From the NCBI GenBank assembly GCA_007125005.1, contig SLDY01000127.1, positions 1 through 52,839 on the forward strand: 52,839 bases of DNA, given 5' to 3'. The notes under the pieces were generated by a model, which was not told the origin of the DNA, did no database searches, and was given only the letters and a program-made list of their open reading frames with translations. Both the position numbers and the translations under genes were made by a program. Positions 3,587-28,073 of the stretch are shown one piece after another; position 1 is the first letter of the stretch; every line of letters begins with the position of its first letter. This DNA is from Natronohydrobacter sp. GTDB lineage: Bacteria > Pseudomonadota > Alphaproteobacteria > Rhodobacterales > Rhodobacteraceae.

Positions 3587-3663
3587 GCCTGTGCCACAGG
3601 CACAGGCAGCGCCCGCGCGGCGTGCAGGGTCGGGTGGGTGGGTGCGGCGCGCGGGCGCTTCCC
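3587..3663 (+). repeat. Dispersed structured element, copy 1 (hairpin plus G-rich loop in an 11-bp stem)
   Basis: First of three homologous intergenic elements. A perfect 9-bp hairpin (GCCTGTGCC 3587-3595, loop ACA, GGCACAGGC 3599-3607) is followed by an 11-bp stem, AGCGCCCGCGC (3608-3618) with GCGCGGGCGCT (3649-3659). The stem encloses a 30-nt loop containing four GGG runs separated by one or two bases (3627-3642). A pyrimidine tract, TTCCCCCTTTCT, follows. It lies 24 bases after the mcd stop and ends just before the convergent photolyase-like gene. See copies at 20863 and 27998. Confidence 0.85.
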
Positions 3664-3668
3664 CCTTT

Positions 3669-4886
3669 CTACAAAAGCTGACGTTGCGAAATGATACGCG
3701 GGATAGCTTTCTTCACCTTGAAGAAACCTGCAGTCGCATGGGGCCAGATCGCCTTGTCCCAGTCCCGCTGCCATTCGCAAAGCGTGATCCCAGCATCCCG
3801 CAAAGCTGGGGCGGCCTCATTCAGCCAGTCACGCAACGGCCCTTCGGGCACATAGCCCGTTACGATCTGCCGGGCCCCGGCATTTGCGGCCCATTGTGCA
3901 AGATCTGATGCAACCCCCGCGCGCAAACCCTCCGCCCCGCCACTTGCGCGCGCCGCCGCGTCACGCAATGCCCCCGCTTCGAAATCCGCCACTGCCGCGC
4001 TTACATGGCCGGGCGAGCGCAGATGCGAGGCTGCGAAGGTGGCATTCGCGCGTATGTCATACCCCCCGAGCCCGAAATCCTCGACCCGGCAATCTTCTTC
4101 GGTGATTAGTAATGCACAGGGCTGTGCAGGATCCGGCGCAGCCGCTTTACGAAGCGGAACCACCGGCGGCAGCCCTTCGGGCTCACTGGCCTGCAGCCCT
4201 TCCACTGTCACGGCCAGATCCTGCGCGCGGGGTGTGAAACGCTGCCCCGTGAACTGCGCGATATTCCATGCCTGAGCGGCATAGGCTTTCCCGCGTGTAT
4301 GCAGCCCCGCCACCCAGCGCCAGCCAAGCGTGTTGGAGGCGGGATCACCATCGAGCAGATGCCTGTAGAAGAAATCCGCCCCGAGCCGCCAGGGCAGATC
4401 CAGCGTGAAAATCCAGATCGAAGCAAACCACATGCGCGCGTGATTATGCAGATAGCCCGTATCGACGAGCTCTTGTGCCCAGAAATCGAAGCATTCGATG
4501 CCAGTTTGCCCCGATTCCGCCAAGGCCACAGCACGGCGCAGATTGCGCGCGCCCTCCAGTGCTTCCAGATCACGCAATAGCCCTGTGCGGTAGCTTGCCC
4601 AGATGCTTGGGCGGTGCTCGAGCCAGCCCTTGAAGTAACCTCGCCAGATCACTTCCTGAATGAATTTCTCCGCCGCATCCGGCCCATGCCCTTTCAGCGC
4701 AGCCGCGACCACTTCCTCCTCAAGCACCAAGCGGCGCCGCAGAAAGGGCGATAGCCCGGACACATCACGATGCGCATTTGGCCCGTGATCGAAATTCCGC
4801 CCTTTTGCGTAGGCCTGCCCCATGCGCGGCTCAAAAGCACGCATTCGGGCCAGCCCCTCTTCGCGGGTTGCGGCGGTGTAACGCAT
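3669..4886 (-). CDS. DNA photolyase/cryptochrome-like FAD protein with unusual domain order
   Basis: 405-residue protein. Residues about 1-245 match the C-terminal, all-helical FAD-binding domain of photolyases: SGLSPFLRRRLVLEEEVV, FIQEVIWRGYFKGWLEHRP, FWAQELVDTGYLHNHARMW and DGDPASNTLGWRWVAG are the family's helices contacting FAD and DNA. The usual N-terminal Rossmann (antenna) domain is absent in front. Instead residues about 260-405 (CALLITEEDCRVEDF, then IVTGYVPEGPLRDWL, then TAGFFKVKKAIPRI) look like that domain placed behind the FAD domain. It would be a blue-light DNA-repair or signalling flavoprotein in the cytoplasm; repair activity is inferred. It follows rmuC and mutL on the same strand, 79 bases after rmuC, in a DNA-repair neighbourhood. 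Confidence 0.75.
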   Translation of the reverse strand: MRYTAATREEGLARMRAFEPRMGQAYAKGRNFDHGPNAHRDVSGLSPFLRRRLVLEEEVVAAALKGHGPDAAEKFIQEVIWRGYFKGWLEHRPSIWASYRTGLLRDLEALEGARNLRRAVALAESGQTGIECFDFWAQELVDTGYLHNHARMWFASIWIFTLDLPWRLGADFFYRHLLDGDPASNTLGWRWVAGLHTRGKAYAAQAWNIAQFTGQRFTPRAQDLAVTVEGLQASEPEGLPPVVPLRKAAAPDPAQPCALLITEEDCRVEDFGLGGYDIRANATFAASHLRSPGHVSAAVADFEAGALRDAAARASGGAEGLRAGVASDLAQWAANAGARQIVTGYVPEGPLRDWLNEAAPALRDAGITLCEWQRDWDKAIWPHATAGFFKVKKAIPRIISQRQLL

Positions 4887-4965
4887 CTATCCTCTCACCT
4901 CTTCCCGAGGCAGAGAAATAGCGGGACATCTTGTCAGGTCCAGCAATCAGGCGCGCATAAACGCA

Positions 4966-6024
4966 TCACTCCTGCGATTTCGCGAAATCGAAATCATCCA
5001 GCCGCGCTCCGCGCCGGGTGATCTTGTCCACTGAAATCCGTATCTCCGACAAATCCCCCTGAACGGAAGCGAAATGCGCCTCGAGCCTGCCCACACGGTT
5101 CCCCAACCGCGTAACATCCTCGACCAGCAACTGCACCTCGCGCCGCACTGCACGTGCCTCATTGCGCAGCCGCGTGTCTTTCAGGATCGCGCGCAACGTG
5201 TTGAGCGTCGCCATGCAGGTCGAGGGTGCCACGATCCACACTTTTGCCGCATAGCTCTCTCGCAGAACATCAGCCATATTGGCATGGATTTCGGCATAGA
5301 TCGCCTCGGAGGGCAGGAACATCAGCGCGCCATCCGCCGTTTCCCCTGGCAGGATGTATCGCTCTGCAATCGCGCGGATATGCGCCTTCAAGGCCCGCGC
5401 AAGTGCCTGCCGCGCATGCGTGCGCCCTGCCTCGTCGCTTGCCCGCGCCAAAGCCTGCCATCCCTCCAGTGGGAATTTCGCATCGAGCGCCAACGGTGGG
5501 TCCATCTGGACCAGCGCATCCACACGCCGCCCGTTCGAAAGCGTCGCCTGAAGACTATAGGCATCAGATGGCAACGCATCCGCCAGAAGCGCCTCAAGCT
5601 GCACTTCACCAAACGCACCGCGCGCCTGTTTATTGGAAAGGATATCCTGCAAACTCAGCACATTACCCGACAGCGCCTCAATCTTGGCCTGTGCTGCGTC
5701 AATCACCGCCAGCCGCTCGCGCAACGCCCCCATGTTCGTCGCCGTCGCCTGCGCATTGCCCGCCAGCGTTTCGCCCATATAGCGGCCCATATCCGCCAGC
5801 CGCGATTCCACCAGCCCGATTACCTGTGTCTGACTCTGCGCCACCTGCCCCAGGCCACCAGCCAGCTGGTTCTGATGCTCCCCCAGATCCGAGAGCCGCG
5901 CATCAAGCACCGCAAGACGCCCCGCAAGCGGCCCCAGAAGCCGCGCGAGTCGCCACAGGATCACCAGTGCAACAGCCCCGAGCGCAAACCCCAACACAAC
6001 AGGATCATCCCATGTTAGGTTCAT
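4966..6024 (-). CDS. rmuC: RmuC-family DNA recombination protein
   Basis: 352-residue protein of the RmuC family, which restrains inversions and other rearrangements and has a predicted nuclease-like core. A single N-terminal membrane segment ([16 protein letters not shown]) is followed by a long helical, probably coiled-coil stretch (about 35-125) and the conserved core, seen in [37 protein letters not shown] and [16 protein letters not shown]. The start is the ATG at 6024, whose last bases overlap the mutL stop (ATGA), indicating translational coupling. An in-frame start 23 codons further upstream lies inside mutL and adds a non-family sequence. Operon order mutL-rmuC-photolyase-like suggests a shared genome-maintenance role. 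Confidence 0.9.
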
Positions 6025-7847
6025 CTGCGCGCAAAAAGCTTTTCTATCTGTGCAAGCGAAAGCTCCACATAGGTCGGGCGGCCATGATTGCACTGGCCCG
6101 AATGCGGCACCGCCTCCATCTCGCGCAGGAGCGCGTTCATCTCTTCCACCCGCATCATCCGGCCCGCGCGGACCGAGCCGTGACAGGCCATGCGCGAAAG
6201 CACTGCATCAATCCGTGCCTCCAGCCGCTCGCCCTGCCCCAGATCGGCCAGATCATCCACAATCTCGCGGATCAGCGCATGCGCATTTACCTCGCCAAGG
6301 ATCGCAGGCGTCTCGCGCACCACCACGCTCGCCCCGCCAAAGCCTTCGATCACCAGTCCCAGCGCGGCGAGATCAGGCGCAATTTCCAGCAGATGCGCGG
6401 CCTCGTGCACGGATAGCTCCACAATCTCCGGGATCAAAAGCGCCTGAGCGGCCACGCCATTCTCAGCCCGCTGCCTTTTGAGCCGCTCATAAACCAACCG
6501 TTCATGCGCCGCGTGCTGATCAACGATCACCATGCCGGTTTCGGTCTGGGCGATGATGTAATTTCCATGCAGTTGCGCCCGCGCGGCCCCCAAGGGCGCG
6601 GCCTCATGTTCCGGTGCGGGGGCCGGGGTTTGCGGTGCCGAAACAACGCCAGCCTCCCAAAGCCCTGCATCTTCGGCAAACCCCTGCGGCGCCTGCATCT
6701 GATAGGCCTTGCGCAGCGCACCGCCCGAGGGGCGCTCCATCTGATAGCGATGCGCCGATTGCGGCTGCATTGCCCCCAGCATCGCATCACCCACTGTCGA
6801 GGAAGAGCGATGCCCGCCTGCAGCCAACGCATGGCGCAGCCCCGAGATCACGAGCCCTCGCGCCAACCCCGGATCACGGAACCTGACTTCCGATTTTGCC
6901 GGATGCACATTTACATCCACCAATTCCGGCGCACAATCCAGATTGAGCACAATAACCGGATGCCGATCGCGCGCGAGCACATCCATATACGCCGCACGCA
7001 AGGCCCCAAGCAGGAGTTTGTCGCGCACCGGGCGGCCATTGACGAAGAAGAATTGCGCGATCGCAGCGCCGCGTGAATAGGTGGGCAGCCCTGCAAATCC
7101 GCTCAGCCGCAGCCCCTCTCGCTCTGCATCGATCCGCAGCGCATTCTCGGTGAAGTCACGACCGAGAACCCGGGCAAGTCGTTCTTCCAGCGCATCGAAG
7201 AGTGCCCCCTGCGCTGCATCCGCCCGAAATATCTCTCGCTGTTCCGAGCCCGACATATCCCGCAGCACGAACCCAACATAGGGTGCAGCCATCGCGAGCC
7301 GCTTGACGGTATCGGCTATCGCCTGTGCCTCCGCCCTGTCCGAGCGCATGAATTTCAGCCGCGCCGGTGTGGCATGAAAGAGATCGCGCAGCGTGACGAC
7401 CGTGCCGAATTGTGCGGCATCAGGCCGGACCAGACCCATGCGCCCGCCATCAACTGTGATCGACGCGCCCTCCTCTCCGGCCATGCGGCTCGTGATTGTC
7501 AACCGCCCAACCGCAGCAAGCGAGGGCAAGGCTTCCCCGCGAAAGCCGAAAGAATGAATGTTCAAAAGGTCAGAGCCGTCAATTTTCGAGGTCGCATGTC
7601 GCGAAAGTGCGAGCGGCAAGTCTTCGCCGCGCATCCCATGCCCGTCATCTCGCACCCGGATCAGCGTCTTGCCGCCATCGGCGTAATCGATCTCGATCCG
7701 CTGCGCGCCGGCATCCAGCGCATTCTCGGCGAGTTCCTTTACGGCCGAAGCGGGGCGCTCCACCACTTCGCCCGCCGCAATGCGATTTATCGCTGCTTCG
7801 TCAAGTTGGCGGATGGCTGGGCGTATGTTGCGGTCAGTTGCGTTCAT
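6021..7847 (-). CDS. mutL: DNA mismatch repair protein MutL
   Basis: 608-residue MutL, the ATP-dependent matchmaker and nicking endonuclease of methyl-independent mismatch repair. The N-terminal GHKL ATPase shows [37 protein letters not shown] and [12 protein letters not shown]. The C-terminal dimerisation/endonuclease domain has [16 protein letters not shown], matching the DQHA-x2-E-x4-E metal-binding motif of endonuclease-competent MutL, so this is not the E. coli type. A near C-terminal GQCNHGRPT segment is also typical. The start ATG lies in the 3' arm of a perfect 12-bp inverted repeat (7840-7870) and lacks a strong Shine-Dalgarno. rmuC begins in its stop codon. Confidence 0.95.
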
Positions 7848-7870
7848 GCTACCGGATATAGCATGAACGC
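7840..7870 (-). promoter_or_regulatory. Perfect 12-bp inverted repeat enclosing the mutL start codon
   Basis: GCGTTCATGCTA (7840-7851) and TAGCATGAACGC (7859-7870) are exact reverse complements with a 7-base loop. In the leftward transcript the true mutL ATG (7847-7845) sits in the 3' arm, so a folded mRNA would hide it. There is no U-run after it, so it does not look like a simple terminator for the M16 genes upstream. The role (translation control or 3' protection of the M16 mRNA) is inference. Confidence 0.6.
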
Positions 7871-7887
7871 CCCAAGCCTGCCAAGCG

Positions 7888-9183
7888 TCAGTTCAACCCG
7901 ACCGGCTGCCCGACAATGACGAAAAACAGTGCCTCGGGATCATAAAGTCGCGCGGCCATATCATTGACCTGCTCAAGCGTAAGTGCGTTCACCAGATCAT
8001 TGCGGATATTCACGTAATCAATGTCGAAACCCTGATACTGCATGGACGCCATGGAGGAGGCGATCGAGGAGTTGCCATCGAATCGCAGCGGATAAGCCCC
8101 AGTCAGATAGGTCTGGATACGCTCCAGCTCTTCCGCCGTGATCCCGTCCCGCGCCATCCGCGCCCATTCATCGCGCAGGAGTTCTATCACCATCTCAACA
8201 TTGGCATTGTCCGTCGACAGGCGCCCCTGATAGGTTTCTCCAAGGGCCCCAGAAGAAAGAAAAGTTCCAATTCCGTAGGTTAGGCCGCGCTCTGTACGCA
8301 AAGACTGCATCAGCCGCGTGCCAAAACGCCCGCCCCCGAAGACTTCATTTACAACAAAGGCGGTCAGAAACTCCGGATCATCACGAGGGATACCGGCATG
8401 ACCAAAGGCGACCACAGATTGCGGGCCAACAAAGGGAATAATCTCGATCCCCGGTTCCGCCAGAAACTCCGCACGCCCGACCGGTTCTGCACCTGTCACT
8501 GGGATGCCCTCGAACAGCCGATCCAGCAGAAGCCCCAGATCCTCTGCCGAAATATCACCGGCAGCGCCGATAAAGACACGATCCCGCGTGATCGCGTTGC
8601 GATGCGCTGCTTCTATCGCGTCACGGTCCAGCAGGGCTACAGTCTCGGGCGTGCCATTACTCTCGCGGCCATAGGGGTGCGCGCCAAAAGCTGCATGCGC
8701 GAATGCCTGCGAGGCGATAGTGTTCGGATTCAGCGCATCACGGCGTAGTTGCGCAACAATCTGCCCGCGGACGCGCTCGATGGCAGGCGGATCAAAGCGC
8801 GGCTCGGTCAATGCAAGGCGCAGATGATGGATCACATCTTCTGCGTCTTCTGTCAAAAACCGCGCAGAGACGCTCACCGTATCGCGTCCGGCCTCGAACT
8901 GAAGCCGAGCAGCGAGCTCTTCCGTGCGCGCTGCAAAGCGCTGCGCATCCAACTCGCCGGCCCCCTCGCTCAAGAGCGCCGCCATCAGATTCACCGCGCC
9001 GGCCTCCTCATCGCTATCAAGCGTAGCGCCTCCCGCGAAGATCAGTTCCAACGAGACAAACGGGATCGAGCGCTCCTCGACAAGCCATGCTTCCAAGCCG
9101 GAAGCGGATGTGACATGCGTAATGTCGACCTCTGCGCGCAACGGTGCCGCGATAAGCACGAATATTGCAATCCAGCGGTTCAT
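7888..9183 (-). CDS. M16-family peptidase, probably catalytically inactive partner subunit
   Basis: 431-residue exported member of the M16 (insulinase/processing-peptidase) family. A signal peptide is visible ([17 protein letters not shown]). At the place where active members have HxxEH, this protein reads [17 protein letters not shown], with no zinc ligands, so it should be the non-catalytic half of a heterodimer. The C-terminal half keeps the family R/Y region ([18 protein letters not shown]). It overlaps its active partner by ATGA at 9180-9183, as expected for stoichiometric subunits. Periplasmic peptide degradation is the likely role; specific substrates are unknown. The mutL hairpin follows 17 bases after the stop. 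Confidence 0.88.
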
Positions 9184-10526
9184 TGGCTCAACTCCGGTGC
9201 AGCGGGCTGTGTCAGGTAACCCGTCACCGAGGCGCGACGATCAAGCAGGTTTTCACCCGCAGCGATCACGTCTTCGGGCGTGATGGCCTCTATGACATCA
9301 ATCCAGCCTTTCACATCCTCAACATTAAGCCCAATGCTCAGCCCCACACCAAAACGCCGCGCGCGGGCCTGTGCGTCATCGAGCCCATATATTTCAGAGG
9401 CACGCATCTGGTGGCGCACCCGCTCGAATTGCTCAAGGTCTACACCTTCTTGCAGAAATTCAACAATCACCCGATCCATCGCAGCCTCGGCCTCTTCCAG
9501 CGAGACGCCCTCCACCGGCGCGATACCCACCGAGAACGTGCCATAATCGCGCATCATACCGCTATAGCTGGCCCACGCCGACAGCGCGATCCCCTCCTCA
9601 AAATTCAACCTGCGCTCGAGCACCGAAGTGGTAGCACTCCCTCCCAGAAGGGCGGCCAGCATCTGCAGCGCTGCGGCTTCGGACTGATCGCCCGTGCGCC
9701 GCGGCGGGACAAGATACATACGGTTCACATAAGGCGTGCCGACACGCGAATCCTTGAAAACAAGCCGGCGCTCGGCAAGATGGGGAGGCTCAGCGGCACG
9801 GCGCACCTCCGCAACATGTGGATTGGGCGGGATATCCCCGTAATGGCGCCGCGCGAGCGCCAAGGCGTCCTCTGTATCGACATCTCCGGCGATCACCAAA
9901 ATGGCGTTATTGGGGCCGTAATGTTGCTGATAGAACGCCATCGCCATCTCGCCAGTGAGAGTTTCCATCTCATGCCGCCAGCCGATAATCGGGATGCCAT
10001 AGGGATGTGTCTTGTAAAGCGCTGCCATCATCGCCTCATTGAACTGCGCGCCCACGCGGCTTTCCAGAACCTGTCCGCGCTCTTCTAGGATCACATCGCG
10101 CTCCGGCAGCCATTCGGCTTCGGTGAAGTGTAGATTCTGCATCCGATCCGCTTCCATCTGCATCATCAACTCCAGCCGATCAGAGGCAACACGCTGAAAA
10201 TAACCCGTGTAATCCCAAGACGTGAAAGCATTATCACGCCCACCATTGGCTTCGACCAGCGCAGAGAACTCTCCGGGTGCCATGCTCTCGGTGCCCTTGA
10301 ACATCAGATGTTCCAGAAAATGCGCGATCCCCGATTGCAGCACCGGCTCATCTGCCGCGCCAATGCGATACCAGACCATATGAACCACCACAGGGGCGCG
10401 GCGGTCTTCGATCACGACAATCTCCAACCCGTTCTCGAGCTGTGCATATGTGACGGGTTCGGCATAAGCCGGGCGCAGCAGGCTGGCCACAATCAGGGCC
10501 GCAAGGGCGATATGGTGCGCGAACAT
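9180..10526 (-). CDS. M16-family zinc metallopeptidase, active subunit
   Basis: 448-residue exported zinc peptidase. It has the inverted zinc motif in GIAHFLEHLMFKG (HxxEH) with the downstream glutamate expected in the MMQMEADRM region, and the C-terminal R/Y motif in the VGTPYVNRMYLVPP area. Three tandem ATGs occur at 10532, 10529 and 10526; GGAGG at 10533-10537 is ideally spaced (6 nt) only for the third, giving MFAHHIALAALIVASLLRPAYA as a signal peptide. Longer in-frame versions upstream add a sequence with no signal character. It is translationally coupled to the inactive partner downstream and would act in the periplasm. Confidence 0.9.
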   Translation of the reverse strand: MFAHHIALAALIVASLLRPAYAEPVTYAQLENGLEIVVIEDRRAPVVVHMVWYRIGAADEPVLQSGIAHFLEHLMFKGTESMAPGEFSALVEANGGRDNAFTSWDYTGYFQRVASDRLELMMQMEADRMQNLHFTEAEWLPERDVILEERGQVLESRVGAQFNEAMMAALYKTHPYGIPIIGWRHEMETLTGEMAMAFYQQHYGPNNAILVIAGDVDTEDALALARRHYGDIPPNPHVAEVRRAAEPPHLAERRLVFKDSRVGTPYVNRMYLVPPRRTGDQSEAAALQMLAALLGGSATTSVLERRLNFEEGIALSAWASYSGMMRDYGTFSVGIAPVEGVSLEEAEAAMDRVIVEFLQEGVDLEQFERVRHQMRASEIYGLDDAQARARRFGVGLSIGLNVEDVKGWIDVIEAITPEDVIAAGENLLDRRASVTGYLTQPAAPELSQ

Positions 10527-10661
10527 CATCATCCTCCGGGAAGTTTTAAAGCAAACTACGCTGACTTCGCCCGGATTCAAGCGCACCCACGCAAGCGTGA
10601 GGGACGGCATGGCACCCAAAAGCCCGCCAGCAGCGGTTTACTCTACCGTGATCGTGTTGAT

Positions 10662-10997
10662 TTAAGGCATTATCGGCGCACCATGCGGGACATGATTGTG
10701 ATCACCCATCGGCAGGTAGGTCGCAGGCATGCCCGGTGGCAGATCGAGTGTTACCTCGGTTTACCCGCCCGCGAGATTGAGATTCTGATCATCTGCCGTA
10801 AACCCGGTTTTCATCTCTGCCAGTTCGGGCATGATCGGCACGTGATAATACCGGGTATCGGACGATTTAGCATGAGCAGGCCCCATCACGTTCTGCTGTG
10901 CAGCAAAATGTGCTGCGACAGGGCTTCAGACCGTCACCCCTGCTTCCAGCCCGATGGGATTAACATCCTTCCCTGCAGGCGAGGCTGTGCGCTCCAT
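10662..10997 (-). pseudogene. Decayed reading frame with two internal stops, unrecognised family
   Basis: The 618 bases between the BamF-like gene and the M16 pair hold no intact gene. One leftward frame from an ATG at 10997 is protein-like for 112 codons but is broken by TGA at 10928-10926 and TAA at 10763-10761, ending at TAA 10664-10662. It reads on coherently in the same frame after each stop, with NVMGPAHAKSSDTRYYHVP, then PELAEMKTGFTADDQNLNL, then a Met/His/Pro-rich tail LPMGDHNHVPHGAPIMP. That is what point-mutated remains of a small gene look like. I do not recognise the family; the tail hints at metal binding, which is speculation. The rest of the gap (10998-11144) shows nothing I can name. 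Confidence 0.4.
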
Positions 10998-11144
10998 CCC
11001 GCGATGCGGATGCAACGCTAAGGCTCATGAGCAATCCTGATGGTCTGATAATGCTCTTGCCCTCCAGATCCAGCATTGCTTTGAAAATGGAAGGATAGCT
11101 CAAATCCCGGAAAATCTGGCCAGTTCCGGAAATACGGCCCCGGC

Positions 11145-12233: not shown

Positions 12234-12245
12234 GGGCGTCCCCCT

Positions 12246-19923: not shown

Positions 19924-19995
19924 ACAAACAGAGATTTGCCTGCCCGCATGTGTCAGGCTAAGTTTGCGCAGATCACATGCGAGGGAGGAGCCTGA

Positions 19996-20835
19996 ATGTC
20001 GCGCACTGTTACAACTAAGATCGGCGAGGCCGAGGTCAGCATCATCACCGATGGCGCAATCAGTTTCACCCCGGACCTCTTTCCCGGAACCCCGGAAGAG
20101 ACAATAAAGGCGCTGCTTGCAAAGGCAGAAACCTCCGAGATCCAGACCAATTTCAACGCCGTGCTGATCCGGCATGGCGGCAAGGTGATCCTTGCCGATG
20201 CCGGACCGCGCGATCTGTTCGGGCCTGATTGCGGGTTCTTGCAAGAAGGGCTCACTGAGCTGGGGGTAACGCCTGACGCGGTGGATATTCTGCTTGCCAC
20301 GCATCTGCATCCTGACCACGTGGCCGGAATGATCACATCCGAAGGCGCAGCGGTCTTTCCCAATGCAACGCTGCATGTCACCGAAGCGGATCGCACCTTC
20401 TGGTCGGATGACGGCAATTTTGCCGGTGGTCTCTCGGGCATCGCTGATTGGGCCAAGCTCGCTCAGGCCGTGCTTGCCGCCTATGGCGACAGGCTGGCAA
20501 CACTGGACGATGGGCGGGAAGCCGCGCCCGGGATTTCGGGGCTGGCACTTCCGGGGCACACGCCGGGGCATTTCGGCTGGCGGCTGGAAAGCGGCGGGCA
20601 GAGCCTCATTCATGTGGGCGACATCGTGCATGCACCCGCTCTGCAGGTGGCCGACCCGGAGGTCGCGATCAGCTTCGACCTTGATATGGACACCGCGCGC
20701 ACCACCCGCAAACGCCTGCTCGACCGGCTTGCCAGCGACGGCACGCTCTTCACAGGCGGGCATTTCCTGCAACCCGCCTTCAACCGGGTCGTGCGCAAGG
20801 GCGCAGGTTACGCACTGGAGCCGGGGGCGGGCTGA
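19996..20835 (+). CDS. Metallo-beta-lactamase-fold hydrolase
   Basis: 279-residue MBL-fold enzyme. The zinc-binding motif ATHLHPDHVAGM (HxHxDH) is intact, with later ligands in ALPGHTPGHFGW (His) and VGDIVH (Asp) and a final TGGHFLQP histidine, so a two-metal site is expected. The closest functional groups are quorum-quenching lactonases and related hydrolases, but substrate assignment from sequence alone is not safe. There is no signal peptide, so it is cytoplasmic. A GGAGG-rich segment (gggaggag) lies before the ATG. It is followed, 27 bases after the stop, by structured repeat copy 2. Confidence 0.85.
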   Translation: MSRTVTTKIGEAEVSIITDGAISFTPDLFPGTPEETIKALLAKAETSEIQTNFNAVLIRHGGKVILADAGPRDLFGPDCGFLQEGLTELGVTPDAVDILLATHLHPDHVAGMITSEGAAVFPNATLHVTEADRTFWSDDGNFAGGLSGIADWAKLAQAVLAAYGDRLATLDDGREAAPGISGLALPGHTPGHFGWRLESGGQSLIHVGDIVHAPALQVADPEVAISFDLDMDTARTTRKRLLDRLASDGTLFTGGHFLQPAFNRVVRKGAGYALEPGAG

Positions 20836-20862
20836 GTCACGCCAGCCATTCCGGCCTGCCCC

Positions 20863-20938
20863 GCCCACGCGCCAGCGTGGGCAGCACCCTCGGGGCGTGC
20901 AGGGGCGGGTGGGTGGGCGCGGCCCGAGGGTGCTTTTC
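20863..20938 (+). repeat. Dispersed structured element, copy 2
   Basis: Hairpin GCCCACGC (20863-20870), loop GCCA, GCGTGGGC (20875-20882). Then comes an 11-bp stem AGCACCCTCGG (20883-20893) with CCGAGGGTGCT (20924-20934), enclosing a 30-nt loop that differs from copy 1 at two positions and contains GGGG-C-GGG-T-GGG-T-GGG (20902-20917). TTTT completes it. Both stems differ from copy 1 by compensatory changes. It lies after the MBL-fold gene and before the convergent selO. Confidence 0.88.
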
Positions 20939-20964
20939 AGCGATTGAAGACCGCAGGCCGCTTC

Positions 20965-22419
20965 TCATGTCCCGCAATAGGTCACGACTTGCGGAGTGTC
21001 CGCAGGGGCAGGATGTTCGAAGCGCTCCATACCACTCACTGGCTCGAACGGCGCCTGCAAAAGCGAAAGCAGCGCGTTGAACGGCGCCATGTCGCCTTTG
21101 AAGCTCGCGGCATGGAGCGCTTCCTCGACCAGATGGTTGCGCGGAACATAAACCGGGTTAACCATGCCCATCCGCGCCTCAGCTGCCACCGGATCGGGCA
21201 CAGCAGCGCGGTATTGTGCAAGCCAGTCCTCCACCCCTGCGGGCGCCGCGAATAGGGCGCGCAGCGGCGCGTCAACGCCGCGCAGGGCTTGTGGCAGCAG
21301 CCGGAAGAAGCGCGTGAAATCAACGCCCTGCCCTTCCCATAGCTTGTGCATCCCCTCAACAAGTGCTGCATCCGGCACATCCAGCCCGAGCTTGCGTGAA
21401 AAAACCTCATCCCGCGCGCTGCGATAGGCCGTCTGCGTCTGTGTGATCACTTCGCTTGCACGCGCAATGGCCCGCTCTTCCTGCGCATCGATCAGCGGCA
21501 GGAGCGCCTCCGCCAGCCGCGCAAGATTCCACAACAGTATCTGAGGCTGGTTGCCATAGGCATAGCGCCCCATCTGATCAATCGAACTGAACACAGTGGC
21601 TGGATCATAGCTGTCCATGAAAGCGCAAGGTCCATAATCAATCGTCTCGCCCGAAATGGTGGTGTTGTCAGTATTCATCACACCGTGGATAAATCCGAGC
21701 CCCATCCACTGCGCGACAAGCCGCGCCTGACGCGCACCAACACGCGCAATAAATTGCAGCGCGGCATCCGCAACGCCTGCCAGATCCGGATCATGGCGGG
21801 CAATCGCGTAATCCAGCAAAAGGTGCAGCTTGTCATACTCGCCCCTCGCGGCAAAGAACTGAAACGTTCCCACGCGCAGATGACTCGACGCCACGCGCGC
21901 AAGCACAGCGCCCGGCTCAAGCCCGAACTGACGCAGCACGCGATCGCCTGTGGTGCAGCACGCGAGCGCGCGGGTGGTAGGCACGCCCAGCGCGGCCATC
22001 GCCTCGGAGATCAGGTATTCGCGCAAAACCGGCCCCAGAACCGCGCGCCCATCGCCCCCTCGCGCAAAGGGCGTGCGCCCCGAGCCCTTGAGGTGGATGT
22101 CCCAGCGCGCACCCTCTGGGTCTATCACCTCGCCCACAAGGATTGCCCGTCCATCCCCCAATTGCGGCGAGAACCCCCCAAACTGATGCCCGGCATAAGC
22201 CTGTGCGAGTGGTCGTGCGCTCTCGGGCACTGCATGGCCCGAGAGCATCGCCACCCCGTCAGGGCTGCGCAAAGCCTCCGGATCCAACCCCAGCGCTTCT
22301 GCCAGCGGGGCATTGAGCAACGCCAGTCGCGGATGAGGCCATTCCTGCCCTTGCCATGGCACATAAAGGCCGACAAGTTCCTGCGCATAGCTGTTGTCAA
22401 AGCGGATCGAGAGGGTCAT
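20965..22419 (-). CDS. selO: SelO (YdiU) protein adenylyltransferase, pseudokinase family
   Basis: 484-residue SelO/YdiU protein. The family has a kinase-like fold with inverted ATP and transfers AMP onto Ser/Thr/Tyr of target proteins, linked to redox homeostasis. Recognisable blocks are AGHQFGGFSPQLGDGRAILVG near residue 90, RWDIHLKGSGRTPFARGGDG with the nucleotide-binding Lys/Arg, GVPTTRALACCTTG, FIHGVMNTDNTTISGETIDY (the metal-binding Asn/Asp) and YGPCAFMDSYDP. The length is the bacterial norm. The protein ends VVTYCGT, with a near-terminal Cys as in bacterial SelO. It lies next to msrB (61 bases apart), which fits an oxidative-stress theme. Confidence 0.93.
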   Translation of the reverse strand: MTLSIRFDNSYAQELVGLYVPWQGQEWPHPRLALLNAPLAEALGLDPEALRSPDGVAMLSGHAVPESARPLAQAYAGHQFGGFSPQLGDGRAILVGEVIDPEGARWDIHLKGSGRTPFARGGDGRAVLGPVLREYLISEAMAALGVPTTRALACCTTGDRVLRQFGLEPGAVLARVASSHLRVGTFQFFAARGEYDKLHLLLDYAIARHDPDLAGVADAALQFIARVGARQARLVAQWMGLGFIHGVMNTDNTTISGETIDYGPCAFMDSYDPATVFSSIDQMGRYAYGNQPQILLWNLARLAEALLPLIDAQEERAIARASEVITQTQTAYRSARDEVFSRKLGLDVPDAALVEGMHKLWEGQGVDFTRFFRLLPQALRGVDAPLRALFAAPAGVEDWLAQYRAAVPDPVAAEARMGMVNPVYVPRNHLVEEALHAASFKGDMAPFNALLSLLQAPFEPVSGMERFEHPAPADTPQVVTYCGT

Positions 22420-22479
22420 TGCGCGCTCCGTCTGTCAAGCTTTCCTTACAGATAACTCGGCCAATCGCGCTGACCAGCC

Positions 22480-22923
22480 TCAAGTCTCTACCTGATCCAT
22501 CAGATCGCCATACCCTTCGGCCTCCATCTCTTCGAGCGGGATGAACCGCAAGGCCGCCGAATTGATGCAATAGCGCAGCCCGCCGCGATCCTGCGGGCCA
22601 TCGGGGAAAACATGGCCCAGATGGCTGTCACCATGGCGTGAGCGCACTTCAGTGCGGATCATGCCATGGCTCGTGTCGCTGTTCTTAATAATGTGATCAC
22701 GTATCAGAGGTTTGGTAAAACTCGGCCAGCCACAGCCGGACTCGTATTTGTCGCAGGAAGCAAAGAGCGGCTCGCCAGAAACAATATCGACATAGATACC
22801 CGCACGCTTGTTGTTGTTATACTCCCCGGTCCAGGGCCGCTCGGTCCCGTTTTCCTGCGTTATTCGATATTGCTCGGGGCTCAGAGCAGTGATAATCTCG
22901 GCGCGGCGTTCGTAGCGGGGCAT
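22480..22923 (-). CDS. msrB: Peptide-methionine (R)-S-oxide reductase MsrB
   Basis: 147-residue MsrB, which reduces methionine-R-sulfoxide in proteins. Core motifs are [49 protein letters not shown] and [15 protein letters not shown]; the catalytic Cys is in RYCINS and the probable resolving Cys in ESGCGWPSF. The two CxxC zinc knuckles of E. coli MsrB are absent, as in the non-zinc subgroup. The start at 22923 has AGGAG seven bases upstream. A longer frame to 23133 runs antisense to the NDUFA12 gene and is not used. The product is probably cytoplasmic. Confidence 0.94.
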
Positions 22924-23087
22924 GATGGCGCTCCTGTTGCTGTTATCTGGCAGAGATATAAACCGGCCGTGCAGGATTTTCCACAAATCGGCATGGCAAT
23001 GCGCGACACTCCTTGGCTCTGGATTTCCCTGCCAAGCTGGTGCATAACAGCGCCAATTCTGCTGTGCCCTGAGATCCGAGGTGGACG

Positions 23088-23462
23088 ATGAAATTCCTGC
23101 TGCGCCTGCTGACATGGTGGAACACTTCCACACTCAACACGGCTTTCTTCACATGGCGCCATGGCGTGAAGGTGGGCGAAGACGTGCAGGGCAACATCTT
23201 CTATCGCTCGCGCGATGGCAAGAAACGCTGGGTCATCTACAATGGCGAATCCGAAGCCAGCCGCATTGCGCCAGATTGGCATGGCTGGCTGCATCACACA
23301 TGGGATGAGCCACCGACAGACCGCCCGCTGGCGCATAAGGAATGGGAAAAGCCACATCAGGAAAATCTGACCGGCACAATGCTGGCCTATGCCCCAAAAG
23401 GCTCGATCCGGCGCAAGAATCCCGAGCCGCGCAAGGATTATGAAGCCTGGAGCCCGGAATGA
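23088..23462 (+). CDS. NDUFA12-family complex I accessory subunit
   Basis: 124-residue homologue of mitochondrial NDUFA12 (B17.2), an accessory subunit of NADH:ubiquinone oxidoreductase found in alphaproteobacteria. Matching blocks are [55 protein letters not shown] and the C-terminal KDYEAWSPE. It should sit peripherally on complex I near the N-module, facing the cytoplasm. It is separated from the main nuo operon (not in this window) and followed by DUF2155 and convergent aat, an order I associate with Rhodobacterales. Confidence 0.92.
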
Positions 23463-23532
23463 ACCTCAATCAGGCCATCCGGTTGCTGATGCGGCTAATC
23501 CGTCAGGTACAGCGCAACAAACGCAGGTGATC

Positions 23533-23922
23533 ATGCGTAGCGGATTTCTTCCAGTCATCGTGGGTTTTCTCGCGGCGCTTGGCGCGCAGGCGCAGGAAAT
23601 AGAGGTGCCTCAGGCCTCCGACCGCATCGCCTCCAGCAATGGCGCGTTTTTGCGCGGACTGGATCGTGTGGCAGGAACCACAATAGACATCGAAATCCAA
23701 CGCGGCGATACTGCCAGCATCGGGCATCTGATCGTGATGCTGGAGGATTGTCGCTACCTTGTCGAAAATCCGGCCGGCGAGGCGTATGCCTGGATCGACA
23801 TTTTCGATACGCGCGCAGATGATGTCATCTTCTCGGGCTGGATGATCGCGTCAAGCCCCGCCCTCAACGCACTTGACCATTCCCGCTATGATCTGTGGGT
23901 GCTGGGCTGCAAGACCTCCTGA
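23533..23922 (+). CDS. DUF2155-family periplasmic protein
   Basis: 129-residue exported protein with a clear signal peptide (RSGFLPVIVGFLAALGAQA). The mature part matches the DUF2155 family: ANGA-like SSNGAFLRGLDRVAGTT, IGHLIVMLEDCRYLVENPAG, EAYAWIDIFDTR, VIFSGWMIASSPALNALDH and YDLWVLGCK. Two cysteines, in LEDCRY and LGCK, are conserved in the family and may form a disulphide. Function is unknown; the family is restricted mainly to Alphaproteobacteria. The last 37 bases overlap the 3' end of convergent aat. The start is chosen because it gives the signal peptide; an earlier in-frame start would run through the NDUFA12 gene. Confidence 0.85.
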   Translation: MRSGFLPVIVGFLAALGAQAQEIEVPQASDRIASSNGAFLRGLDRVAGTTIDIEIQRGDTASIGHLIVMLEDCRYLVENPAGEAYAWIDIFDTRADDVIFSGWMIASSPALNALDHSRYDLWVLGCKTS

Positions 23923-24524
23923 GCCCCCGGCAACGAAAAACGCCCGAAATCTGCATCTGCCTGCAGGGCAAGCTCAAGTCTTGCCCGATAGGCTGCACGG
24001 GAGATTTCGCGCCCACCAAGGCTTGCCAGATGATCGGTGAGATATTGCGTATCAAAAAGCGTGAAACCACACAGGCGCAGATGCGCAACCAGATAGGCCA
24101 GCGCAACTTTGGAGGCATCAGTGCGGCGTGAAAACATGCTCTCTCCGCAAAAAACACCACCCAGTGCAAGGCCATAGACACCACCAACCAGCGCGTCACC
24201 TTCCCAGACCTCGATCGAATGGGCATGACCCAGGCTGTGCATCTCCCGAAAGAGTGCCGCGATTTCGGCATTGATCCAGGTCGTCTCGCGGTCAGCGCAT
24301 CCAGCAATGACATCGGCAAACGCCTGATCGAGCGTCAGCCGGAAAGGTTCGGCCCGGATGCGCCGTCTCAAAGAGCGCGACAGGTGCAGCCCATCAAGCG
24401 GCAGGATGCCGCGCTGCACCGGATCAAACCAGTAAAGCCGGGGATCATCGCAGCCCTCAGCCATCGGGAACACGCCGATCCGGTAGGCTTGCAGCAATAT
24501 CTCCGGGGTCAGAACAGACCGCAT
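23886..24524 (-). CDS. aat: Leucyl/phenylalanyl-tRNA-protein transferase
   Basis: 212-residue Aat, which adds Leu or Phe from tRNA to N-terminal Lys/Arg residues and so marks proteins for the N-degron (ClpS/ClpAP) pathway. Diagnostic blocks are LLQAYRIGVFPMAEG, YWFDPVQRGILPLDG, WINAEIAALFREMHSLGHAHS, EVWEGDALVGGVYGLALG, FCGESMFSRRTDASK and LFDTQYLTDHLASLG. The length is typical. It is the last gene of the ribBX-ribH-nusB-aat operon, starting 9 bases after nusB, and its 3' end overlaps the DUF2155 gene on the other strand. Confidence 0.96.
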   Translation of the reverse strand: MRSVLTPEILLQAYRIGVFPMAEGCDDPRLYWFDPVQRGILPLDGLHLSRSLRRRIRAEPFRLTLDQAFADVIAGCADRETTWINAEIAALFREMHSLGHAHSIEVWEGDALVGGVYGLALGGVFCGESMFSRRTDASKVALAYLVAHLRLCGFTLFDTQYLTDHLASLGGREISRAAYRARLELALQADADFGRFSLPGAQEVLQPSTHRS

Positions 24525-24533
24525 GGTTGCGGC

Positions 24534-25016
24534 TCAGAACTCGCCTGCGCGCGCCTCACGCGCCATGTGATCGAGAACAGCATTCACGAAATTGATCTCG
24601 CGCCCTTCTGGAAAGAAAGCCCGCGTGATGTCCACGAATTCCGAGATCACAACGCGCGCAGGAGTCTCGGTGCCCAGCAACTCGCCCCCGGCTGCACGAA
24701 ACAGCGCGCGCAATGTCGGATCGATCCGGTCGATCTTCCATTTCGCAACCAGCGCGCGGTCGGTCAACTGGTCAATTGCAGCCTGACGCTCGACAACCGT
24801 CTCGATCAGACGCCGGAAATGCGCAAGGTCAGCCTCGACCCATGTCTCGGTTTCGGTCTCGGCGCCGATACGGTGCGTCTCGAACTGGCGCGTAATCTCG
24901 CCAATCGGCACGTCCGAGGCTTCCATCTGAAACAGCGCCTGCACCGCATAAAAACGCGCGGCCGCCTTGCGGGCACGGCGTTCCTGCAGCGTGGGTCGAT
25001 GCTTGCTCCCGCTCAT
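24534..25016 (-). CDS. nusB: Transcription antitermination factor NusB
   Basis: 160-residue all-helical RNA-binding protein which, with NusE/S10, nucleates rRNA antitermination complexes at boxA. The family pattern is seen in RKAAARFYAVQALFQME near the N-terminus, LIETVVERQAAIDQLTDRAL, and the C-terminal ELLGTETPARVVISEFVDI and EINFVNAVLDHMARE. The start ATG at 25016 overlaps the ribH stop (ATGA). Positioning after ribH is a widely conserved arrangement in bacteria. Confidence 0.95.
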   Translation of the reverse strand: MSGSKHRPTLQERRARKAAARFYAVQALFQMEASDVPIGEITRQFETHRIGAETETETWVEADLAHFRRLIETVVERQAAIDQLTDRALVAKWKIDRIDPTLRALFRAAGGELLGTETPARVVISEFVDITRAFFPEGREINFVNAVLDHMAREARAGEF

Positions 25017-25561
25017 GCCACAGGCCCCTTGTTGCCCGAGGCGATCTGAAACTCGTCCGTATCGGGCAGAAAACCCACAGAGCGCCGCGCGCCTCCCCAA
25101 CGCCGCGCAAGTGCGATCAGATGCAGCGCCGCCGCTGCAGCCCCGCCGCCCTTGTTCTGGCCATCCATTGCGGCGCGCACTTCCGCCTGCGCGCGGTTCT
25201 CCACCGTCAGGATGCCATTGCCGATGCAAGCCCCCTGCAAACCCAGCAGCGTGATCGCCCGCGAACTATCGTTGCACACTGTGTCGTAATGCGTGGTCTC
25301 ACCACGGATGACACAGCCCAGCGCCACAAAACCATCAAAATTGGACATGCGAAACGCTTGCCCGATGGCCGTGGGCACTTCCAGTGCGCCAGGCACTTCG
25401 ACAATCTCATGTGTGCCGCCCACTTTCTCGATCTCCGCGCGCGCGCCTGCAACAAGCTGATCGGCAATATCCTTGTAATATGGGGCCACCACGATCAGCA
25501 GTTTCGGTGCCTTGTCGAATTCCGGCAGCGGCAGGCTGTAATGCGTCTCGGTTCCAGCCAT
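25013..25561 (-). CDS. ribH: 6,7-dimethyl-8-ribityllumazine synthase
   Basis: 182-residue lumazine synthase, condensing 5-amino-6-ribitylaminouracil with 3,4-dihydroxy-2-butanone 4-phosphate in riboflavin synthesis. Motifs are LLIVVAPYYKDIADQLVAGA, EIVEVPGALEVPTAIG (substrate phosphate/ribityl contacts), FVALGCVIRGETTHYD (catalytic His near the end) and NGILTVENRAQAEVRA. The C-terminus (RRSVGFLPDTDEFQIASG) is longer than in the shortest homologues. It starts one base after the ribBX stop and ends inside the nusB start, so the three genes are translationally coupled. Confidence 0.95.
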   Translation of the reverse strand: MAGTETHYSLPLPEFDKAPKLLIVVAPYYKDIADQLVAGARAEIEKVGGTHEIVEVPGALEVPTAIGQAFRMSNFDGFVALGCVIRGETTHYDTVCNDSSRAITLLGLQGACIGNGILTVENRAQAEVRAAMDGQNKGGGAAAAALHLIALARRWGGARRSVGFLPDTDEFQIASGNKGPVA

Positions 25562-25562
25562 G

Positions 25563-26693
25563 TCAGGCACCTCTCGCAGAAGGAATCTTGCGGGTTCCGG
25601 TGATCGATAACCCATATCCATCCAGCCCCACCACCTTTGGCGTGGCGGAATTGGTGAGCAGGATCAATTCATGCAGCCCCAACGAAGACAGGATCTGCGC
25701 ACCAAGCCCATATTGCCGCAGCGTCTGCGGAGAGGCTTCTTCCGAGACCGCCATCTTCATATGTGTATCCCGCAGCAATACGACCACACCGCGCCCTGCC
25801 TCACCGATCAACCGCATCGCATCGCCGAACTCATCGGCACGGCTGGCCCCGGCCACACCCACCAGATCCTGTAGCGGATCGAAGGCATGCATCCGCACCA
25901 TCACTGGCTCGGGCGTGGTTATATCGCCCTTGATCAGCACCACATGCTCAGCACCCTGCGTGGTGTCGGAATAGATGCGCAGCGTCCAGTCGCCGCCGAA
26001 AGCCGAGGTGATCTGGCGCTCGCTCATCACCCGCACAAGATTGTCATGCCGGCGCCGATAGGCAATCAGATCCGAGATGGTGCCGATCTTCAACCCGTGT
26101 TTCTGTGCGAAACCCACCAGATCAGGCAGTCGCGCCATCGAGCCGTCTTCGTTCATGATCTCGCAGATCACGCCTGAAGGATTCAAGCCCGCAAGCCGCG
26201 AGATGTCAACCGCCGCTTCTGTATGCCCTGCGCGCACAAGCACGCCGCCATCGCGTGCGCGCAGCGGAAAGACATGCCCTGGTGTCGCAATATCCGCTGC
26301 GCCCTTGGCCGGATCAATCGCTACTGCCACCGTGCGCGCCCGATCATAGGCAGAAATGCCCGTCGAGACTCCCTCGCGCGCCTCGATGGATACAGTGAAC
26401 GCCGTTTCATGGCGCGAAGAATTGCTCGACGCCATCAATGGCAGGCCAAGCTGGTCAATCCGCTCGCCCGGGAGCGTCAGACAAATCAGCCCCTTGCCAT
26501 GCGACGCCATGAAATTGATCACTTCGGGCGTGGCCATCTGCGCGGGGATCACCAGATCCCCTTCATTCTCGCGATCCTCATGATCGACGAGGATGAAAAT
26601 GCGGCCCTGACGGGCTTCTTCAATGATCTCTTCGATCGAGGAGATGGCCTCTTTCCAGTCCTGCTCCACCTCGCCGGGGGTCTCATATTGCAT
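25563..26693 (-). CDS. ribBX: RibBX: DHBP synthase with degenerate GTP cyclohydrolase II-like domain
   Basis: 376 residues. The N-terminal half (about 20-210) is 3,4-dihydroxy-2-butanone-4-phosphate synthase: [19 protein letters not shown] (metal-binding acidic loop), [33 protein letters not shown]. The C-terminal half aligns with GTP cyclohydrolase II but lacks the zinc cysteines (where RibA has C-x2-D-C, this reads DPLQDLVGV) and the RGIGL catalytic loop (here [11 protein letters not shown]). This matches the RibBX variants described in Proteobacteria, where only RibB is active. A separate RibA must then exist elsewhere. The start is ATG 26693; longer frames run antisense to the endolysin gene. 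No FMN riboswitch is evident upstream. Confidence 0.88.
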
Positions 26694-26832
26694 CACGCGG
26701 TCCTTTGTCTCTGGCCTTGGCAAATAGACCAAAGGCGCAGGCAGGGAAAGGGGCAGCGTACGCTCTGCTAACGTGGTTTTTCCCTTCTCAAGGCATCTTG
26801 CCGGGCATGACATCTTGCAAGGGAGCCTCCCC

Positions 26833-27432
26833 ATGAAAACAGTCCGCCAACTGGCCGAAGAAATCGTCGCCCGCGAAGGTAGCTTCGTCAATGACCCCGC
26901 AGACCCGGGCGGGGCCACAAATTATGGTGTGACCATCCACACCCTGCGCCGCCTGCGCCCCGGCGCGCATGTGACCATCGACGATGTCCGCGCACTGACC
27001 CGCGAAGAGGCCATCGCGATCTATATCGAGCACTATTTCAACGCTCCGCGCATTGCTGAACTGCCCGAACCTCTCTGGCCGACTGTTTTTGACATGTATG
27101 TGAATGCCGGAGCCAATGCCGTGCGCATCCTGCAAAGGCTTATCGTACAGATGGGTCTCGATATCGCTGTAGACGGGATCATCGGCCCTCAGACCATTGC
27201 CGCAACCCAACGCGCTTATGAAATGGCACCGGGGCATCTGGTCGATGCCTATGGCATCGCAAGGCGCGATTACTACTATCGTATCGCCGATAATCGCCCC
27301 GCCAGTCGCAAATTTGCGCGCCGGCGCGATGGTGGCAAGGGTGGCTGGATTACCCGCGCGGAGGAATTCATCTCTGCCCGCTTCCATCTCAGCGATGCAG
27401 AACACCGCGCCCGCACGAGGGCATGGGTATGA
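26833..27432 (+). CDS. GH108-type N-acetylmuramidase (endolysin of a GTA-style lysis cassette)
   Basis: 199-residue peptidoglycan hydrolase. The N-terminal glycoside hydrolase 108 domain shows IVAREGSFVNDPADPGGATN (catalytic Glu in the EG motif) and YGVTIHTLRRLR. The C-terminal peptidoglycan-binding-like region has VDGIIGPQTIAA followed by YYRIADNRPASRKFARR. It has no signal peptide, so export would need the holin encoded next, whose ATG at 27429 overlaps this stop. The same endolysin/holin pair (rcc00555/rcc00556) releases gene transfer agent particles in Rhodobacter capsulatus; assignment to that role here is by analogy. GGGAG precedes the ATG. Confidence 0.85.
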   Translation: MKTVRQLAEEIVAREGSFVNDPADPGGATNYGVTIHTLRRLRPGAHVTIDDVRALTREEAIAIYIEHYFNAPRIAELPEPLWPTVFDMYVNAGANAVRILQRLIVQMGLDIAVDGIIGPQTIAATQRAYEMAPGHLVDAYGIARRDYYYRIADNRPASRKFARRRDGGKGGWITRAEEFISARFHLSDAEHRARTRAWV

Positions 27433-27968
27433 TCCGCTCGCTTTTCGGCCTTGTCTTCGGCGGCGCGCGCGAGGCCCGCGCACTGGGCCAGACAGTCACA
27501 TCGGTGGCCGAGGTCTTTCGCCCAAATGCCACCCGTGCGCTGGAGCTTGGTCATGACGCCTACAAGGCCGCCCATGCCAGCCACACGGCCGAGTTCCAAT
27601 ATGGGCGCGGCGGCTGGTTCGACAGCTTCGTCAACGGGCTGAACCGTCTGCCCCGCCCGCTTCTGGCACTCGGAACACTTGGGCTATTCGCCTATGCAAT
27701 GGCTGACCCGCAAGGCTTTGCGATCCGGATGCAAGCGCTTGGGGCCGTGCCCGAGCCGCTCTGGTGGCTCCTTGGCGCTGTGGTGGCGTTTTATTTCGGC
27801 GCACGCGAGGCGCATCATCTGCGCTGCCACAAGGGCGGGGCCACACCGGGCAGACCTTTGCCGGCACTCCCCGAGGCGCGCGTGCCAAAAAACGGGGCGG
27901 AGGGCATATCGCAAAATCCCGCGCTCGCAGAATGGCAAGGGACAACAGGCATTCCACCCGCCGCATGA
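27429..27968 (+). CDS. Holin of the 3-TM GTA-release family
   Basis: 179-residue membrane protein with hydrophobic segments in IRSLFGLVFG, RPLLALGTLGLFAYAMA and LWWLLGAVVAFYFGAREAHH, resembling the family annotated as three-TM holin for gene-transfer release. A basic/polar C-terminal tail of about 45 residues follows. The ATG at 27429 overlaps the endolysin stop (ATGA) and has GAGG eight bases upstream; another in-frame ATG at 27423 is too close to that site. It would form membrane lesions that let the muramidase reach the wall. It is followed by structured repeat copy 3. Confidence 0.82.
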   Translation: MIRSLFGLVFGGAREARALGQTVTSVAEVFRPNATRALELGHDAYKAAHASHTAEFQYGRGGWFDSFVNGLNRLPRPLLALGTLGLFAYAMADPQGFAIRMQALGAVPEPLWWLLGAVVAFYFGAREAHHLRCHKGGATPGRPLPALPEARVPKNGAEGISQNPALAEWQGTTGIPPAA

Positions 27969-27997
27969 TCGCAATTAGCGCGGCTTCGCGTCTGCCC

Positions 27998-28073
27998 GCC
28001 TGCGCATCAGCGCAGGCAGCGCCCTCGGGGCGTGCGGGGGCGGGTGGGTGGGCGCGGCCCCAGGGCGCTTTAT
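27998..28073 (+). repeat. Dispersed structured element, copy 3
   Basis: Hairpin GCCTGCGC (27998-28005), loop ATCA, GCGCAGGC (28010-28017). Then an 11-bp stem AGCGCCCTCGG (28018-28028) with CCCAGGGCGCT (28059-28069), one C-C mismatch, enclosing a 30-nt loop that differs from copy 2 at a single base and has the same G-run pattern (28036-28052). TTTAT follows. It lies 29 bases after the holin stop, and the convergent DUF3775 gene ends within its last bases (stop at 28070). Confidence 0.88.

Follow-up and report, generated by a model that had tools for sequence, protein, structure and literature searches.

A family of covarying hairpins with a G-quadruplex motif at gene ends in one Rhodobacteraceae genus

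What does a bacterial genome gain, if anything, from a pair of hairpins that carries a G-quadruplex (G4) motif and recurs between the ends of its genes? The question is raised by a 52,839-nt stretch of Natronohydrobacter sp. (SLDY01000127.1 1-52,839, forward strand; the window in what follows), part of a genome of 2.83 Mb in 157 contigs that we call G000. Three copies of this two-hairpin element are present in the window, all on the plus strand and each between a plus-strand gene and a minus-strand gene; sequence and gene calls thereby uphold an initial annotation that had placed all three in the same orientation at such junctions. In this study we show that the copies belong to a family with a covarying structure, constrained G tracts, a position at gene ends and a strand bias, whose slot at one junction is shared with other hairpins. 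Our preferred reading, held tentatively and falling somewhat short of an even chance, is a slowly turning-over, long-kept family of structured boundary elements (terminators or insulators) at the 3' ends of transcription units.

A covarying two-hairpin unit and its G tracts

The element measures 75-80 bp and consists of a first hairpin, P1 (8-9 bp in the window copies), followed directly by a second, P2. The latter opens with an A-T pair and 11 further pairs (12 bp) and continues through a G.G mismatch or tandem G.A pairs into a 5-bp inner stem. It ends in a 16-nt loop that carries four GGG tracts; the final G of tract 4 also closes the inner stem. The annotation had seen an 11-bp stem around a 30-nt loop. 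Its two-hairpin plan stands; the outer stem is one pair longer, at 12 bp, and the 30-nt stretch inside it is itself folded, with the 5-bp inner stem and the 16-nt G loop. In the window copies the inner stem pairs CGTGC with GTGCG or GCGCG, and in other copies it is Watson-Crick. The 30-nt stretches differ at two bases between copies 1 and 2 and at one between copies 2 and 3, while the surrounding stems change in pairs with a single mismatch, in copy 3, all as had been described.

Among the first 10 copies, all from G000, 95.6% of the cells are paired and 8 pairs show double changes, values that 0 of 500 shuffles reached. A larger P2 alignment draws on 12 genomes and comprises 44 copies, with 42 distinct rows and 52 columns free of gaps (48 rows less L046, L064, L065, L066 and L192, plus window copy 2). 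Here 95.1% of cells are paired, 12 of the 17 pairs carry double changes, and double-change cells number 70; again 0 of 500 shuffles came up to this, and sliding the structure by 1-3 columns left at most 54% of cells paired. Copies within one genome and orthologues are not independent, hence all count comparisons given in this text are indicative. The covariation bears out the selection for structure that had been proposed from three copies. The annotation had further stated that a lack of additional copies or of covariation would speak against it; additional copies and strong covariation were both found. The inner 5-bp stem is real, with CGTGC/GCACG, CGGGC/GCTCG and GGTGC/GTGCC interchanging among copies. 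At pairs 10 and 11 the unpaired cells (13 and 12 of 42) are mostly GA opposite GA, a tandem G.A arrangement. GA opposite GA in place of two stem pairs occurs in P2 of L212, L096, L093, L086 and others, and to judge from the letters such copies could form tandem G.A pairs that bend the stem. When copies are folded as single elements, the outer stem forms in 125 of 131 even without a quadruplex term. In plain folds of 135-nt contexts, likewise without that term, P2 forms in 6 of the 10 complete copies of G000.

The G tracts are kept more strictly than their surroundings. After exclusion of 26 of 131 copies (P2 not 52 nt long or with too few pairs), 99 of the 105 standard 52-nt P2 copies have four GGG tracts inside the loop. 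In these 105, tracts 2-4 hold a base other than G in 8 of 945 cells, and two of the spacers hold a base other than T in 34 of 210. Tracts and spacers are both nearly fixed in the search model, so it is not expected to favour spacer changes. Tract 1 shifts its register (AGGGTC, AAGGGC, ATGGGC, AGGGGC) and still keeps GGG in 80 of 86 distinct rows; shuffled columns give a mean of 75.4, and 3 of 1000 shuffles reach 80. A looser count over the whole hit finds four GGG tracts with loops of 1-7 nt in 122 of 132 strong hits; L026, a copy of G000, has just three G runs in the loop itself. With quadruplexes allowed, the energy model of ViennaRNA predicts a quadruplex in the lowest-energy fold of 125 of the 131 copies, the outer stem being retained in 124. 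These patterns are best fitted by a real requirement for the quadruplex motif in the family, and the quadruplex presumably forms in the cell.

In G000 the element is not confined to three copies, as had been thought. A model built from 10 copies returned 16 matches in this genome at E ≤ 1, of which 13, including all 10 model copies, had E ≤ 5e-7. Matches at E ≤ 0.01 were found in 28 of 80 genomes (G000 included), namely in 27 of the 37 of the genus and, weakly (E 0.005), in one elsewhere. Within the genus the copy number ranges from 0 to 57 per genome among the matches listed, and two relatives exceed 50; in these counts near-palindromic copies can appear as hits on both strands, most of all in G015, and several one-match genomes are weak, those of G024, G034 and G036 being a phn-like hairpin and not clear members. 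An exact pattern hit 58 stretches in GTDB genomes, all of them labelled Natronohydrobacter or Rhodobacteraceae bacterium, the latter a metagenome-assembled genome (MAG). The family is concentrated in one Rhodobacteraceae genus, Natronohydrobacter and MAGs; N. thiooxidans AH01 has 20 matches at E ≤ 0.01, and 7 at E ≤ 1e-4. The genomes with exact-pattern matches originate, we assume, from soda lakes. A model of P2 only matched 17 of 394 genomes of the bacterial family (393 genera, G000 included) at E ≤ 0.001, and besides G000 more than two matches were seen only in G105 (at least 14), G300 (8, with 7 on a single contig) and G164 (3).

G000 contains the short word GGGTGGGTGGG 27 times, at what we merge to 21 places. 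At about half of these the motif lies within a long hairpin (plain folds, 135-nt contexts); of the remaining places some are cut by contig ends, and that on C157 lies inside a gene. Hairpins outside the family carry GGGTGGGTGGG at the tip on C8, C9 and C17 (L018 4856, L019 5077, L020 1348), and on C20 and C154 (L021 3520, L032 4995) the word stands beside an inner hairpin within a long stem. It seems, then, that G000 displays quadruplex motifs on stems more widely than in this family. At five of the 21 places (C20, C51, C62, C107, C128) a contig ends within 16 bases of the motif, a sign that sequencing polymerases or assemblers may break off at it; repeats are another possible cause.

Position at gene ends and orthologous junctions

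Genes were called with a small codon-usage caller that was trained on the studied loci and also applied to other genera. We sorted the non-redundant strong copies, 131 in all, by their gene neighbours: convergent genes flank 80, tandem -/- gaps (both genes read the C-rich strand as sense) hold 30, tandem +/+ gaps (both genes on the G-rich strand) hold 8 and divergent genes flank 4, while 9 lie at an edge or overlap a called gene. The proposed family of 3'-end elements is borne out. A gene ends at the 3' side of the element in 114 of the 131 copies; a plus gene stands on the 5' side in 93. These two counts, together with the tandem bias, show that the steadier neighbour is the end of a gene whose sense strand is C-rich and whose template is the G strand. 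The initial annotation had tied the element to the 3' end of the plus-strand gene. This did not hold, as in 30 of 38 tandem cases the adjoining gene reads the C-rich strand, so that the quadruplex would lie on the template DNA strand and be absent from that gene's mRNA. In other genera, 26 of 40 matches, several of them weak, divide into 13 tandem -/-, 2 tandem +/+, 7 convergent, 2 divergent and 2 unclear cases. The element is the sole hairpin of at least 7 bp in 63 of the 80 convergent gaps; background gap rates are biased, the loci having been fetched for holding the element.

The copies of the window and their flanking genes are as follows.

1902-3563, plus strand: acyl-CoA dehydrogenase family gene, flanks copy 1
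3587-3607, plus strand: copy 1, hairpin P1, 9 bp with a 3-nt loop
3608-3659, plus strand: copy 1, P2 with 12-bp outer stem, G.G mismatch, 5-bp inner stem and G-tract loop
3626-3642, plus strand: copy 1, G-quadruplex motif, GGG tracts at 3627, 3632, 3636 and 3640
3660-3667, plus strand: copy 1, tail, one T, then C-rich
3669-4886, minus strand: gene for the FAD-binding domain of DNA photolyase, flanks copy 1
19996-20835, plus strand: metallo-beta-lactamase fold gene, flanks copy 2
20863-20882, plus strand: copy 2, hairpin P1, 8 bp
20883-20934, plus strand: copy 2, P2 stem and loop
20901-20917, plus strand: copy 2, G-quadruplex motif
20935-20942, plus strand: copy 2, tail, short and T-rich
20965-22419, minus strand: protein adenylyltransferase SelO gene, flanks copy 2
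27423-27968, plus strand: gene-transfer-agent (GTA) holin gene (PF11351; 3 transmembrane segments), flanks copy 3
27998-28017, plus strand: copy 3, hairpin P1, 8 bp
28018-28069, plus strand: copy 3, P2 stem and loop with one C.C mismatch in the stem, directly adjacent to the stop codon of the minus gene
28036-28052, plus strand: copy 3, G-quadruplex motif
28070-28402, minus strand: DUF3775 gene, flanks copy 3

In 81 convergent copies the four positions after the closing pair are T in 89, 69, 51 and 32 percent, and about 4 positions past that pair the T content of the family is down to background. The T-rich tails of the earlier description are short, and copy 1 has TT (one T paired) ahead of CCCCC. 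The excess 3' of the stem on the G strand is alike in +/-, -/- and +/+ contexts, and beyond P1 on the opposite strand nothing resembling it was seen. The T run is shorter than in the clear terminators of the same loci; over 7 positions it is not T-poorer than that of 34 unselected tandem-gap hairpins. The element resembles intrinsic terminators in its GC-rich stem just past a stop codon, its T excess and the alternative hairpins in the same slot of relatives, whereas the short T run, the 16-nt loop of G tracts, the preceding P1 and an orientation often antisense to the gene that it follows set it apart. No other canonical terminator for the minus gene was found in 29 of the 30 -/- gaps and in 73 of the 80 convergent gaps, by a weak test to which 13 of 69 control gaps were positive.

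How long do copies stay at one place? For copies 1 and 3 we fetched 30 junctions each across the genus, some of those for copy 1 being cut by contig ends. The copy-1 junction carries the element in G000, G013, G007, G003, G025, G010 and G002, with stems strongly changed but compensated, and also in G022; the copy in G008 looks chimeric, G035 is cut after a P1-like hairpin and G031 retains only a P1-like hairpin. Other relatives have unlike hairpins in this slot, some of them with T-runs; in at least four without the element (L226, L231, L244, L245) the plus gene is followed by a GC hairpin of another kind and its T-run. Another hairpin, with the G-rich loop GGAGGGAGGAG, is seen at this junction past the acyl-CoA dehydrogenase gene in five species, at L231, L232, L237, L241 (one base longer) and L243; it was rejected as a repeat family, its loop pattern occurring only 6 times, in 5 of 37 genomes. 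Carriers at the copy-3 junction are G000, G013, G001, G012, G032 and G015; the copy-2 junction has the element in G000 and in G013, and a stretch that resembles it in G015. Hence orthologous copies persist across species, and their strand at shared junctions is mostly the same. In a one-gene tree the copy-1 carriers form a well-supported 7-species clade (including G031, which is without the element) and the pair G000/G013. The copy-1 sites might be old, retained and sometimes lost, or else gained repeatedly.

Possible roles in transcript boundaries and messenger stability

As to function, we infer that the element terminates transcription because it is placed at gene ends, is the only hairpin in most convergent gaps and shares its slot with ordinary hairpins. 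The folded unit (P1, then P2 with its three-tetrad quadruplex motif and short spacers) would contribute to halting RNA polymerase or to setting where transcripts end, and this boundary role might be played chiefly between convergent genes. For the gene read from the C-rich strand, a quadruplex in the template DNA strand could serve as a roadblock that needs no U-tract; for the convergent gene, the RNA would give a very stable hairpin and then a short U-run. A more specific proposal is a polar, two-sided and G4-capped terminator, in which a template-strand quadruplex on a hairpin stops the polymerase on one side and a hairpin terminator serves the convergent gene on the other, at tens of gene ends in some Rhodobacteraceae. 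In this full form we consider it doubtful.

Several observations weigh against a boundary role. Ten of the 132 strong hits are without four GGG tracts, and L046, in G000 itself, retains P1 and P2 while its G loop is gone; since only G-rich copies went into the models, those that have no G tracts are under-sampled. Four of the 10 complete copies of G000 refold in their 135-nt contexts (no quadruplexes allowed) and lose P2. Element-free copy-3 junctions are often just abutting gene ends, which makes the element dispensable there, and at shared junctions the strand is flipped relative to the G015 copies (L088, L090) and the weak copy L069. Only 17 of the 80 convergent copies have at least 5 T among 8 tail bases, and -/- gaps, where no plus gene needs it, show an equally strong T excess. 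Finally, the absence of another terminator says little, because the test finds one in just 13 of 69 element-free tandem gaps of at least 100 bp.

It might also be possible that the element acts in RNA, as a 3'-end or intercistronic stabiliser of the gene read from the C-rich strand, its two hairpins blocking 3'-5' exonucleases; the G tracts would then merely complement a C-rich loop needed by an RNA-binding factor or for pairing. The tandem bias (30 copies against 8 in the genus, 13 against 2 for the 26 of 40 matches in other genera) is consistent with such a role. So are similar hairpins between genes of one direction: at L071, L075 and L077, three species of the genus, an orthologous hairpin with a G-rich loop lies near 1501-1584 between tandem phnI- and phnJ-like genes, and at L335, in another genus, a similar hairpin lies between two carboxylase-subunit-like genes (both likenesses by eye). 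However, kept GGG with free spacers and a tract 1 that shifts its register point to a need for a quadruplex, which is not obvious for a C-rich loop. Moreover, where the element lies in a -/- gap of the genus, 80-370 nt often separate it from the next start, which resembles a unit boundary more than an operon joint. We regard a stabiliser as rather unlikely.

Less likely readings: mobility, a DNA-level site and an RNA switch

Could the family simply be a mobile repeat, REP- or MITE-like (repetitive extragenic palindrome; miniature inverted-repeat transposable element), whose folded strand is recognised by an unknown enzyme and whose place at gene ends reflects tolerance? We judge this unlikely, slightly more so than a stabiliser. 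REPs and bacterial interspersed mosaic elements (BIMEs) are described, in the portion of PMC3733652 available to us, as dispersed intergenic palindromes between convergent and unidirectional genes, with subfamilies that have alternative complementary stem bases. The element shares with them its intergenic place, many copies, covarying stems and convergent or unidirectional neighbours, and this REP-like location (PMC3733652, same portion) argues for mobility, as do 0 to 57 copies within the genus among the matches listed and presence or absence at orthologous junctions. In contrast, REPs and BIMEs have 20-40 bp and a GTAG or CGTC tag and are often linked to a REP-associated tyrosine transposase (RAYT), whereas the element is longer (75-80 bp), is made up of two hairpins, lacks a tag and has a G-quadruplex loop under constraint. 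For GTAG and for CGTC alike (or the complement), no more than 7 of 129 copies have the tag close to one of their ends. A Y1 transposase (Y1_Tnp, PF01797) scored over the cut-off only in G001 and G029 among the 37 genomes of the genus, some of them incomplete; G001, with 31 element matches, is the sole copy-rich genome to have one, which speaks for mobility. Against it, there was none over the cut-off in G013, G015, G033, G012, G031 or G000 (most of them many-contig MAGs), and orthologous copies have compensated stems and retained G tracts. A REP with RAYT was rejected as a general explanation, tags and Y1 transposase being mostly missing.

A known Rfam RNA was rejected as the identity of the element as well: Rfam 15 gave no match at the gathering threshold for the window or for 10 loci, and a relaxed threshold over the region of copy 1 gave only hits far below gathering scores, in agreement with the earlier remark that no named motif fits. 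Kaplan and others reportedly described in 2016 an intergenic G-quadruplex/hairpin/duplex switch within REP-like sequences of E. coli. Like the element, this is a repeated intergenic sequence able to be hairpin or quadruplex; in the element, by contrast, the motif tops a covarying stem and both can form together, the lineage is another and the placement is strand-biased. Paracoccus denitrificans presumably belongs to the same family as the organism of the window. Upstream of its nasT lies a single G-quadruplex motif in the promoter region (PMC5123632, in the portion available). That motif is intergenic, too; it differs in sequence, and the same portion describes no stem or repeat family, hence it was rejected as the same element. 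A description of our element was not found in the open-licence literature covered, including the available portions of PMC5424462, PMC7015867, PMC3733652, PMC6974567, PMC6060812 and PMC5123632.

The element might instead act at the level of DNA, in topology or replication: gyrase or the nucleoid could use it where genes converge, or replication could read it as a polar signal. In favour of this, 18 of 23 pairs of neighbours on a G013 contig have the same strand (palindromic hit excluded), the G4 strand of G013 runs against the local gene majority in 38 of 50 copies, and the corrected GC3 skew is negative in 32 of 50 (p 0.065); on contigs with a skew of at least 0.04 it is negative in 26 of 33, a limit chosen after inspection of the table. 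The three window copies agree. The preference is partial, however: there is none in G015, whose copies are mostly without P1 (skew 10 to 8, gene majority 10 to 10, at convergent sites), and the few loci of G000 stand 4 to 4. It could follow from gene-strand bias and the rule for the adjoining gene, and we consider a DNA-level site improbable.

Least probable is the reading of the initial annotation, in which an RNA G4 switch belongs to a 3'-UTR-derived small RNA or to a terminator that serves the plus gene: RNA of the plus strand could, as modelled, display the quadruplex on its stem, and a plus gene lies upstream in 93 of 131 copies, but the adjoining gene in tandem cases mostly reads the C-rich strand and would have the quadruplex on its template DNA strand, not in its mRNA; the 30 tandem -/- copies have no called plus gene upstream while their T excess persists, a transfer RNA (tRNA) was rejected as an explanation of these gaps, none being found in 22 loci, and no convincing small open reading frame on the plus strand was seen in the -/- cases examined, the better-scoring ones overlapping the opposite gene. 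For the plus gene of convergent pairs such a switch is possible.

Evolved functions of quadruplexes in bacteria are debated, mostly from counts of motifs. In conclusion, the family described here makes a bacterial quadruplex constraint visible in evolution, with compensating stems, drifting spacers and near-fixed G tracts at gene ends and with a strand bias. With it, the function of quadruplexes at the ends of transcripts can be put to a direct test in N. thiooxidans, a named species.

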